Shown here: one piece after another, positions 4,736-30,458 of the stretch
Position numbering within the stretch: position 1 is the first letter of the stretch
How the letters are laid out: each line of letters starts with the position of its first letter
Origin: Methanobacteriota archaeon
GTDB lineage: Archaea; Thermoplasmatota; Thermoplasmata; RBG-16-68-12
Direction: 5' to 3'
NCBI GenBank assembly: GCA_005878485.1
Contig: VBMG01000041.1
Span: 1 to 45,441, forward strand
Length of the DNA: 45,441 nucleotides
Translations under genes and position numbers: made by a program
The notes under the pieces: generated by a model
Databases searched by the model: none
What the model saw: only the letters and a program-made list of their open reading frames with translations
What the model was told of the DNA's origin: nothing

Positions 4736-6130
4736 TTATCGGCGGTCGCGGACCGCGGACAGGCCCATGATCGCCCCGACCGCGACGAGGACGAAAGCAA
4801 AGAAGCGAAGGCCGAACGCGAGATTTGGTGCGACGGCAATCCCGGTTTGATACGACAACACGCTGGGCAGGTCCACGAGGACCTCGTACAGGACGAAGAG
4901 CATCACGCCGAACCCCACGAGACTAATCCCGCTTCCGGGACTTCGGTGCCGGTGGACGACCGTTGCGGTCGAGAGCGTGGCGACTTGCGCCGCCGGCCGT
5001 GCGACGACGGCGGAGACGCTCTCCGCTTCCGCCTCCGGCTTCGGGAGGTCCGCCGGTGCATATCGTCGGCAGGCGTCGCACCACCAACGTTCGTACTGCG
5101 CGATCCACCGGAGCGCCGAACCGCAGTTCGGGCACGCGAATTTCGACGTGCTCACCGGAGCATACGCGCGACAGTGGTAGCAATACCAACGTCGATACAA
5201 GGCGATGTAAGTGAGTTCGCGGCCGCAGGTCGGGCATGGATGTATCGTGCGCGCCTGCTGGTAGACAGAAGCCGACGCGACCGAAGGCTGCATTTCCGAA
5301 GGCGTAACGGCTGACGCCGCGGAGAAGGCCTCGACGACGGCCTGCGTGGGCTCGTCCGTTTCGACGACGGCCGAAGCTACCGCGACAGCCGGAGAGGGCA
5401 CCTCCGTCGCGGCCTCCTCCTCCGGGCTCTCCTCCGCCACAACCCGGTCGTCGGGGACCTCCGCGGTGGCGGCCTCCGTTTCGCTCTCTTTGGCGGGCAT
5501 CTCTTCCATGGGAGGCGGTCCCTGCTGTGCCGACACCTCCTCCTCTGGGATTTCTTTCGGCTGGGCCTCGGCCTCGAGTGTATCGAGGTAGCTCAACAGT
5601 CGCTCTCGGAGTTGCTCTTTCGTTCCCGTCGGATCGAGATTGTAGTCTTTGCACAGATCGAGGAGAGTGGTTTTCTTCGCTTGGAAGATTTTGACACGGT
5701 TCAGCGGTTGTGTCGGTCGCTTTGGGGCCGGCTCGTCGGGCGGGATTTCTTCCTCGGCCAGCGGTGCGTGCTCCTGCACAGGTTCCTCGGGCGGTTCGAC
5801 GACCCTCGCCGCGGGCTTCTCGACTTTCGGCGGTTCCGTGAGGAGGACCGTGGGCGCCGTGGAGGCCTCCTGCGTCGGAGGATTGGAGACCGCGTCGTAG
5901 ATCGATTTCAGGTCTGCCTCTTCGGCCGGGAACTTGCTCTCGCGGTAGCAGTAGTAACGATTGTACTCGGTGACGTACGAGAGGATGCCGCCACACGACG
6001 GACAAATTTTCGCCCCTTCGTCGCCGAACCCCTGGGGCGCGTACTGGCCGCACGCATAGCAATAGTGTCGGCGATACTGCTCGAGCAAAGCGAGTTCGCT
6101 ACCGCAGTTGGGACAAGGAAGGCCCGTCAC
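4736..6130 (-). CDS. Membrane-anchored protein with four zinc-ribbon-like repeats and a SAP domain
   Basis: Repeats CPNCGSELALLEQYRRHYCYACGQYAP / CPSCGGILSYVTEYNRYYCYRESKFP / CPTCGRELTYIALYRRWYCYHCRAYAP / CPNCGSALRWIAQYERWWCDACRRYAP; SAP-like KTTLLDLCKDYNLDPTGTKEQLRERLLSYL; two C-terminal TM segments; GTG start at 6130 likely. Confidence 0.75.
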   Translation of the reverse strand: MTGLPCPNCGSELALLEQYRRHYCYACGQYAPQGFGDEGAKICPSCGGILSYVTEYNRYYCYRESKFPAEEADLKSIYDAVSNPPTQEASTAPTVLLTEPPKVEKPAARVVEPPEEPVQEHAPLAEEEIPPDEPAPKRPTQPLNRVKIFQAKKTTLLDLCKDYNLDPTGTKEQLRERLLSYLDTLEAEAQPKEIPEEEVSAQQGPPPMEEMPAKESETEAATAEVPDDRVVAEESPEEEAATEVPSPAVAVASAVVETDEPTQAVVEAFSAASAVTPSEMQPSVASASVYQQARTIHPCPTCGRELTYIALYRRWYCYHCRAYAPVSTSKFACPNCGSALRWIAQYERWWCDACRRYAPADLPKPEAEAESVSAVVARPAAQVATLSTATVVHRHRSPGSGISLVGFGVMLFVLYEVLVDLPSVLSYQTGIAVAPNLAFGLRFFAFVLVAVGAIMGLSAVRDRR

Positions 6131-6259
6131 GCAACGCCGCGGAGGCCGGGTGCCGCGAATAAAAGCTCTTTCATGATTTCCAAAAATGAGATTCTTCACG
6201 ACTTGTATCGCAGGTTCTCGCGGAAACCCTTTTACCGAAAGCCTCCATGGGCTCGCTGC

Positions 6260-6777: not shown

Positions 6778-6927
6778 TGCCACGCCGGTACAGCGCTCCC
6801 CGGACACTTGAGCGTTGTTCGCACGCCGGCTCGGTTTCGTGCGCCGCCTCAGTCCGTCCCGCGATAATCGGTCAAAAAACGTTACGTACTCTCGGTGCTC
6901 CTCCACCGCAGCCGAAGGGGCCGACAA

Positions 6928-7173
6928 ATGCGATTCCCACGGAGAGGGCCAAGGGCAGTCGTTTCGACTCCTCTTCCCGCGGCGGATCCGCTCCGGATCC
7001 TCTCGGAGTACGTCCTCCACATGTCGATCACGTGCCTCGGAGAGCATGACGTCACTCCGCTCTACGAGGAATACATTCAGGACGCGAGGTTGGGAGATGC
7101 GGAGCGGGCGGAGCTTACCGCGGTGTATCGGACCCTCTTGCCGCGAACAGCCGTAGCCGCTGCGGCCCCCTGA
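6928..7173 (+). CDS. Hypothetical protein
   Basis: ORF 6895..7173 with likely start ATG 6928 (MRFPRRGPRAVVSTPLPAADPLRILSEYVLHM...); no family recognised. Confidence 0.45.
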   Translation: MRFPRRGPRAVVSTPLPAADPLRILSEYVLHMSITCLGEHDVTPLYEEYIQDARLGDAERAELTAVYRTLLPRTAVAAAAP

Positions 7174-7194: not shown

Positions 7195-7308
7195 CTACCG
7201 GCGTTTGCATTCGGATCGACAGCAATCTGCGCAGCAGGCGGATTCACACCGGCACCCGTGCTGCTCGCGTTCTTCCCCAAGCGCCTGTGCGAGGCTGAGC
7301 GTGATCAC
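7195..7308 (-). CDS. 37-aa cysteine-rich microprotein (metallothionein-like), GTG start, directly downstream of arsM
   Basis: MITLSLAQALGEEREQHGCRCESACCADCCRSECKRR*; 7 Cys in the last 19 residues; GGAGG (7316-7320) 7 nt upstream of the GTG and overlapping the arsM stop region; below the ORF-track size cutoff. Confidence 0.7.
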   Translation of the reverse strand: MITLSLAQALGEEREQHGCRCESACCADCCRSECKRR

Positions 7309-7312
7309 GAGT

Positions 7313-8032
7313 TCACCTCCCGCCCGGTTTTCGAGCGACGAGTGTGACCGCCGAGGCCTCGACCCCGTTTGGCCCCGTGCGCCACGCCCGGTCTTCGGCG
7401 ATGTGAAGTTCCCGAAACCCCGCGTCGCGAATCGTGTTCAGGTATTCCGCGCGGACCATGGCCGTCGCCACACATCCGCAATCATCCTCGATCTTTCCGA
7501 GATCTCGTTCTTGCACGATGTCCGAGATCGCGAGACGCCCTCCCGGCTTCAGGATGCGGAATGCTTCCGCAAACACGGCCGGCTTGTCGGGGCTTAGGTT
7601 GATCACGCAGTTGCTGAGGACGACGTCCGCGATGTTGTCTGCGAGAGGAATCCGTTCGATGGGCGCGAGGACGAACGACGTATTCGGGGCTCGGGGGGAG
7701 TGGGCCGCGCCACGGGCGCGATCGACCATCGCGGGTGTCATGTCGACTCCAATGGCCCGGCCTTGAGCTCCGACGACGCTCGCGGCGAGGAACACATCGA
7801 CGCCGGCGCCCGATCCAAGATCCACGACGGTTTCGCCCGGGTGCAGGCCCGCAACCCGCACCGGATTCCCGCTCCCGAGCCCGAGAACCGATTCCGCTGG
7901 AATTCGCGCCAGCTCGTCGGCCGAGTAGTCGGACGCGCAGCAAGCATTTCCGTTGCAACATCCGGCACCGGTTGCCGCGAGGGCGTACCGCTCTTGGATT
8001 TTCGTGCGGATTGCCTCCATGTCTGAGCCCAT
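7313..8032 (-). CDS. arsM: Arsenite S-adenosylmethyltransferase
   Basis: [39 protein letters not shown]...[37 protein letters not shown] motifs near N-terminus. Confidence 0.9.
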
Positions 8033-8038
8033 GATTAT

Positions 8039-8055
8039 CTACTACCGAATAGTAG
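8039..8055. promoter_or_regulatory. Operator candidate CTACTA-CCGAA-TAGTAG between divergent arsM and TrmB genes
   Basis: 6-bp perfect arms, 5-nt spacer, immediately upstream of the arsM start. Confidence 0.55.
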
Positions 8056-8094
8056 TAGTCAACCTCAAATACCTTCCCTACCTCTGGCTAAGAG

Positions 8095-8880
8095 ATGTCG
8101 GAAGTCAAAGCGCGCGCGAACGCTCTGCTCCAAGACGCCCTCGGGCCTTCCGAGGAACGAATCCGGGGGACGCTGCGGGATGTCGGCTTCAGCAGCTCCG
8201 CCGCGGAAGCGTTTTGCGCCTTAGTCCGGGTGCGCGAAGCAACTGCAGGCGACCTCGTCCGGAAGATCGGAATCCCGGACTCGAAAATCTATTACGCGCT
8301 CGACGAACTCGCGGAAAAAGGTCTCGTGGAGGTTCAAGCGGGGAAGCCGAAGACGTATCGCGTCGTGCCGCCGAAAGAAGTAGAGATTCGCCTCCGGCGG
8401 ATCGTCGATGCCGACTACGAGCGGCGGAGGGCCGCGACAACTCGGCTCGGTGGCCTCCTGGAGCCCCTTCGTGCCGCGACCAAGTCTCCGGCAACGGACA
8501 TTGCGTACATTGTGAAAGGCGTACCAAATATTGTCGCCCGCGCCCAGTCGCTTATCGCCTCCGCTCGGAAGGAGATCGTGATCCTCGCCTCCGACGAGCC
8601 GTTCTTCCGCAAGGTCGAGGCCGATCTCGGGAAAGCCAGTCGGCGGCGCGTTCGAGTGAAGCTCGCGATCCCAGACATTCAACTCGAGAGAGATCTTGAA
8701 AAGGCCGCCGAGGTCCGGTCGATTGTGTGCAATTGTCTACTGATCATCGTGGACGCGCAGCAGGTCCTCACAATGACGCGCACCCTGGACGGCGATGCCT
8801 ACGCCATCACCTCAACGGATCCCACGTTGGTTCAGCTCGGCCTGGACTACTGGGCGAGTCCCCGCTGTTGCGTCATGTGA
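8095..8880 (+). CDS. TrmB-family regulator with Cys-bearing C-terminus (candidate arsenic/metal-responsive)
   Basis: wHTH VREATAGDLVRKIGIPDSKIYYALDELAEKGLVEVQAGKPKTYRV; PLD-like C-terminal domain with CNC and terminal RCCVM. Confidence 0.85.
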   Translation: MSEVKARANALLQDALGPSEERIRGTLRDVGFSSSAAEAFCALVRVREATAGDLVRKIGIPDSKIYYALDELAEKGLVEVQAGKPKTYRVVPPKEVEIRLRRIVDADYERRRAATTRLGGLLEPLRAATKSPATDIAYIVKGVPNIVARAQSLIASARKEIVILASDEPFFRKVEADLGKASRRRVRVKLAIPDIQLERDLEKAAEVRSIVCNCLLIIVDAQQVLTMTRTLDGDAYAITSTDPTLVQLGLDYWASPRCCVM

Positions 8881-30287: not shown

Positions 30288-30458
30288 TCATGGGCCGCCG
30301 AATGAACAGACCGGGCAACGATACGCGACCGACTGGTCCCGACAACGTGCACAACGCCCAATCATCGACTTGCCGCAGCTCGGACACGAAAAGAGAGTCG
30401 TGCCTTTCCCGGACAGGACGGCCCCGCACGAGGTGCATCGGCTCTCGGATCGAATCAC
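30288..30458 (-). CDS. 56-aa double zinc-finger protein (HVO_2753-like), GTG start
   Basis: VIRSESRCTSCGAVLSGKGTTLFSCPSCGKSMIGRCARCRDQSVAYRCPVCSFGGP*; directly upstream of aEF1B; below ORF-track cutoff. Confidence 0.85.
   Translation of the reverse strand: MIRSESRCTSCGAVLSGKGTTLFSCPSCGKSMIGRCARCRDQSVAYRCPVCSFGGP

Follow-up and report, generated by a model that had tools for sequence, protein, structure and literature searches.

Directly behind a gene for an ArsM-like arsenite methyltransferase, the 45,441 nt stretch of archaeal DNA analysed herein (the window) carries an unannotated reading frame of only 37 codons that is rich in cysteine. This raises the question of whether the frame is a gene at all and, if so, what its product might do beside an arsenic-methylating enzyme.

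A cysteine-rich reading frame at the arsM stop codon

The locus comprises the following features.

7195..7308, minus strand: microprotein gene, a conserved ORF (six species, purifying selection); 37 aa, GTG start, TAG stop, 7 Cys, MITLSLAQALGEEREQHGCRCESACCADCCRSECKRR
7316..7320, minus strand: GGAGG, Shine–Dalgarno (SD) sequence of the microprotein; adjoins the arsM stop, with 7 nt to the GTG
7313..8032, minus strand: gene for an arsM-like arsenite methyltransferase, 239 aa; Ser54 at the site of CmArsM Cys72, Cys142 and Cys187 at those of Cys174 and Cys224, extra Cys185
8039..8058, no strand assigned: putative operator CTACTAC-N6-GTAGTAG, between arsM and the regulator
8066..8071, minus strand: TATA-like box of arsM, TATTTG
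8095..8880, plus strand: divergent gene for a TrmB-family regulator (TrmB PF01978, E=3.5e-17); C212xC214 and C258C259

On the minus strand the 3′ end of arsM reads ..CCG GGC GGG AGG TGA, and this stop codon (7315-7313) is followed by ACTC and then by the start codon of the microprotein, which is GTG and not ATG. An earlier note on this DNA had described a seven-cysteine ORF 4 nt past the arsM stop, with GGAGG in the stop region; its translation is exactly as claimed, and the GGAGG is found abutting the TGA (7320-7316). The cysteines (residues 19, 21, 25, 26, 29, 30 and 34) all lie in the C-terminal half, spaced CxC-x3-CC-x2-CC-x3-C. Within the window, this is the sole ORF of 25-70 aa with at least 15 % Cys, and no equally Cys-rich ORF arose in 20 windows simulated with a first-order Markov model (~7,400 ORFs).

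Conservation and selection

The search for ArsM covered 200 related genomes and 400 genomes of the class. In the window's own family, which comprises uncultured archaea, six of the seven loci with a complete arsM of this type have a Cys-rich ORF of 35-37 codons at the same place (genomes G000, G008, G011, G016, G019 and G021). It is absent from the complete arsM locus of G020, also of this family, and from G026, a genome of the order outside the seven family loci that harbours the same type of ArsM. At five of the six loci the microprotein start overlaps the arsM stop (GTGA or TTGA, −4), with GGAGG at the same distance; in the window the start lies at +4. The SD region 5′ of the start reads GGAGGTGA in G000, G008, G011, G016 and G021, and GGAGGCGA in G019. 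The microprotein is read in frame +1 relative to arsM in the window but −1 at the remaining five loci, and because this relation varies whilst start codon and SD are kept, reinitiation by coupling is favoured over a conserved frameshift. Programmed frameshifting to an ArsM–tail fusion was rejected as a conserved mechanism on the same grounds.

Substitution patterns point to selection on the encoded peptide. Values of dN/dS are 0.04/0.25 (G016–G008), 0.29/0.75 (G011–G016) and 0.28/1.29 (G019–G021), and 47 of 85 differences in three independent pairs fall at third positions (p=2.6e-5). For the closest pair, so few amino-acid changes were obtained under neutral simulation at p=0.006. The earlier note had held that a substitution pattern typical of non-coding DNA, or the lack of a conserved start, stop and Cys pattern, would speak against a gene. 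Purifying selection is seen instead, and the start position, SD and near-constant length are retained in five other species; the Cys pattern, however, is kept only loosely (4-8 Cys). A small-ORF profile search was also proposed in that note; a profile of the six members matched 6 of the 400 class genomes (E from 6e-16 to 2e-11, the window's own genome at E=8e-15), each match adjoining arsM, with the next at 0.006. No free-standing copy away from arsM was detected in those 400 genomes at E below 0.005.

It is barely credible that the ORF arose by chance in the GC-rich sequence beside the arsM stop. Although it is short, starts with GTG and is missing at one of seven family loci, its conservation, its SD and start codon placement in six species, and the excess of third-position differences all argue otherwise. 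The microprotein is, with near certainty, a real and conserved gene, and the claim that it is an unannotated, translationally coupled member of the arsM operon is strongly supported.

Properties of the microprotein

The six sequences share a consensus of roughly MI-x4-LA-x-AL-x-EE-x4-GCC-x3-6-CC-x2-C-x2-C, and their C-terminal tails are GCRCESACCADCCRSECKRR, GCCGGATCCCGDCCTCGG, GCCGSGPCCADSRCGCCA, GCCGSCPCCADSRCGCCA, GCGPCDPGCRLECRPR and RCCGGPCCEEWCRLECRDC. Each contains 4-8 Cys (11-22 % of residues), with three Cys columns being invariant. The fewest occur in the G019 microprotein, which has four, all single. A CC-x2-4-C motif is brought next to the ArsM C-terminus by the microproteins of the window (as CC-x2-CC), G008, G011, G016 and G021. 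A structural model of low confidence (pLDDT 61) predicts an N-terminal helix of ~15 residues followed by an open Gly/Cys-rich tail. No match was found in Pfam for the three members tried, or in NCBIfam for the one tried, and a search for PDB relatives returned a chance match alone (E=0.78). The microprotein is thus a new small family without a Pfam or NCBIfam model.

Two known kinds of protein invite comparison. Like metallothioneins (the bacterial SmtA type and others), the microprotein is small, Cys-rich and presumably binds soft metals, but it is tied to arsM and lacks both sequence similarity to them and a fixed Cys pattern; the searches above (three members in Pfam, one in NCBIfam) gave no match to a metallothionein family. 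The earlier description of the peptide as 'metallothionein-like' therefore holds for composition only, as no such model is matched and Cys number and spacing vary, and the variation in Cys number speaks against a fixed metallothionein fold. ArsD is an arsenic metallochaperone of ~120 aa that hands As(III) to its partner, the ArsA ATPase. Vicinal Cys pairs encoded in an ars operon are common to ArsD and the microprotein; the latter, however, is of 37 aa in the window, does not match the Pfam ArsD family and adjoins ArsM rather than ArsA.

The partner methyltransferase

By fold and sequence, the window methyltransferase groups with ArsM/AS3MT. The best Foldseek matches are CrArsM (5evj) and CmArsM (4fr0/6cx6), with E-values down to 6e-16, and Pfam Methyltransf_31 is matched at E=5.5e-30, in line with an ArsM fold that includes a SAM-binding Rossmann domain. 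Its score against NCBIfam NF008823, 244.9 bits, does not reach the curated cut-off of 263, hence the label 'ArsM-like', with activity on arsenite being putative.

The enzyme falls in a monophyletic clade (support 100/100) with a long stem, all eight members of which carry Ser54 at the site of CmArsM Cys72, whereas Cys is found there in 100 of the 102 further ArsM that were sampled. Cys72 has been reported as conserved in all ArsM examined (PMC5552862), and the C72A variant of CmArsM loses As(III) methylation whilst retaining that of MAs(III) (PMC3877260). An ArsM enzyme needing only two Cys has also been reported (Huang 2018, as cited in PMC8649762). The clade has gained Cys185 (in DDCGC), two residues before Cys187, the counterpart of CmArsM Cys224; this residue is present in 6 of the 102 other ArsM and could by itself restore a third arsenic ligand. 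Enzymes of this clade may thus be specific for MAs(III), may rely on Cys185, or may obtain thiols from elsewhere; in the last case the microprotein is the obvious candidate source. It is not strictly required, since Ser54 occurs without it in G020 and G026. Rather unlikely, in our estimation, is a two-part methyltransferase, that is, a one-chain ArsM split into a core lacking the third As-binding Cys and a co-translated microprotein that would give thiols in trans, as donor or as third ligand.

Several related enzymes were encountered during this survey. In G021, ArsM (L009, G021:C32) seemingly lacks its N-terminal 35 residues, including the CC motif, and the microprotein is kept. A second ArsM-like clade in the genus (L164, G012:C16; L165, G003:C35) shows GVGDP where Cys72 would lie and lacks the microprotein; Acr3 is present in both genomes. 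Open frames of up to ~600-680 aa (L163, G011:C21:424-2451; L168, G012:C16) join a DsbA-like thioredoxin domain to an ArsM-like methyltransferase in which SNGVLNL replaces SNCVINL, with a middle region that by eye resembles a winged helix; comparable long frames occur in several genomes of the family.

Regulator, operator and gene neighbourhood

A divergent TrmB-family gene is found at all eight loci of the clade. C212-x-C214 and C258-C259 are invariant in the five aligned regulators, and the other three also show IVCxC and an SPRCC end. The putative operator likewise recurs at all eight loci, G026 having a single mismatch, and lies 5-9 nt ahead of the arsM ATG. It is preceded by a TATA-like box, which in the other loci reads TATTTA, TATATA or TACTTA and lies 38-42 nt before the ATG. 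The common operator, together with the CxC and CC motifs of the regulator, indicates a soft-metal(loid) regulon. The layout of operator and TATA-like box would fit repression that is lifted by a thiophilic metal(loid), and we infer As(III) as the ligand of the TrmB-type regulator. Neither a TrmB-type arsenic regulator nor a small Cys-rich protein beside arsM was found in the open-access literature. Acr3 (TIGR00832) was absent from every family genome with the locus and present in four without it, these genomes being incomplete.

Elsewhere, the window encodes the large subunit of DNA polymerase D, which marks it as archaeal. A convergent 92-aa ORF without a Pfam match (6895-7173, plus strand) ends 21 nt from the microprotein stop, and a similar ORF lies 3′ of the microprotein in G016 and G008. 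On the minus strand, 4736-6199 encodes a protein of 487 aa in which several double zinc ribbons are combined with a SAP domain and a hydrophobic segment at the C-terminus, and 30288-30458 is a 56-aa ORF with four CxxC motifs that looks like the archaeal zinc-ribbon (HVO_2753-like) family.

Cysteine-rich modules attached to other ArsM proteins

Of 110 ArsM sampled, 12 carry three or more Cys within the C-terminal 30 aa, and CCx2-4C occurs within the C-terminal 25 aa of nine, mostly right after the final '..KPG' strand (..EAVKPGGKACCGPSCC). No member of the window's clade is among either set, with the tail-bearing enzymes falling in other ArsM clades than the microprotein-linked one. The CC-x3-CC tails of bacterial ArsM (e.g. 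L048, ..KPGGKACCGPSCC; L104, ..KPGGCCSSSACC) resemble the microprotein in having similarly spaced Cys pairs that directly follow the ArsM core. They differ in being part of the same chain with no short helix ahead, whereas the microprotein is encoded by a separate gene at the arsM stop and has such a helix. For the vicinal cysteines of algal ArsM, a role as strong As(III) sites has been proposed (PMC9812998). An attached thiol or selenol module is similarly seen where ArsM is fused to AhpD, DUF2284 or UXPK-star selenoprotein domains (NF041537, NF041536, NF047649), although these too reside in one chain, in contrast to the separate, coupled gene described here. For a comparison of ancestry, the fused tails and the microprotein are short and of low complexity; by analogy, the simplest reading is that the microprotein would be the separately encoded equivalent of a fused ArsM tail.

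Amongst ~100 other loci, no convincing case of another small Cys-rich ORF directly 3′ of ArsM was found. Small Cys-rich ORFs do lie 5′ of bacterial arsM at L056 (MKKECCNIK..SCCCGKEQ), L089 (..SSCCCFQ..SSCCK) and L117 (ending AACCAACC), two of them with a good SD and none matching Pfam or NCBIfam; these are possibly independent cases of the same idea.

Proposed role of the microprotein

As judged from sequence and context, there is an even prospect that the microprotein is an As(III)/MAs(III)-binding thiol partner of ArsM. Its gene would close a divergent unit responsive to metalloids, with the TrmB-type regulator on one side and arsM and the microprotein on the other. Coupling of translation at the arsM stop implies joint production of ArsM and the microprotein. 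The vicinal Cys pairs would bind As(III) or MAs(III), and the bound arsenic would be passed to ArsM, or the thiols kept available there, both contact and transfer being presumed; as a separate subunit, the peptide would do the job presumed for the CCxxxCC tails fused to some bacterial ArsM. The role proposed in the earlier note, buffering of As(III) or its donation to ArsM, is plausible by context, given the exclusive linkage to arsM, the Cys-bearing regulator and the fused bacterial CC tails. Counted in favour of a thiol partner are the occurrence at six of seven family loci, the start position and SD, selection, linkage, fused tails, regulon, Cys72 loss and the vicinal Cys sites proposed for algal ArsM. 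Counted against it are G020 and G026, which lack the microprotein, the presence of only four Cys in G019, Cys185, the two-Cys enzyme reported in the work cited above, the low-confidence model, and a helix that has no counterpart in fused tails.

A somewhat unlikely alternative is that the microprotein acts as a free, metallothionein-like buffer, sequestering cytoplasmic As(III) or soft metals (Zn, Cd, Cu) with no contact to ArsM, such that coupling would serve co-induction only. Small size, abundant Cys and loosely conserved spacing are expected of a sequestering peptide, and with no Acr3 found in the (incomplete) locus-bearing genomes, the cells would benefit from a sink. Against this stand the strict association with a single ArsM type, the strict coupling of translation, a Cys number of 4-8, which is low for a metallothionein, and the lack of a match to any metallothionein model.

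Distinctly unlikely is a thiol/redox partner, the Cys pairs of which would reduce the ArsM disulfide or As(V) intermediates in each cycle and carry no arsenic. Thiols are consumed during ArsM turnover, and both the NCBIfam fusions of ArsM to redox or selenoprotein domains (NF041537, NF041536) and the DsbA-type thioredoxin domain fused to an ArsM-like methyltransferase in this family would accord with such a role. Against it, no CxxC is conserved throughout, and CxC and CC pairs are no less suited to binding a metalloid.

Still more improbable is completion of the active site in trans, with a microprotein Cys serving as the third arsenic thiolate that the clade lost with Cys72. The Ser at this site in all eight members, the confinement of the microprotein to the clade and the inability of C72A CmArsM to methylate As(III) (PMC3877260) all lean this way, but in G020 and G026 the Ser occurs where no microprotein is encoded, the newly gained Cys185 may stand in as the ligand, and a bacterial ArsM (L076) combines Ser54 and Cys185 with no microprotein.

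Implications

Unannotated proteins of fewer than 40 aa mostly escape gene callers, and the tight link of this one to a single enzyme renders its function testable. If ArsM does receive arsenic from the microprotein, the peptide would count as an arsenic metallochaperone serving methylation, and what the CC tails do on some bacterial ArsM could be tested directly. The three-cysteine rule for ArsM would, moreover, be relaxed across a whole archaeal clade, which would bear on the prediction of arsenic methylation from metagenomes.
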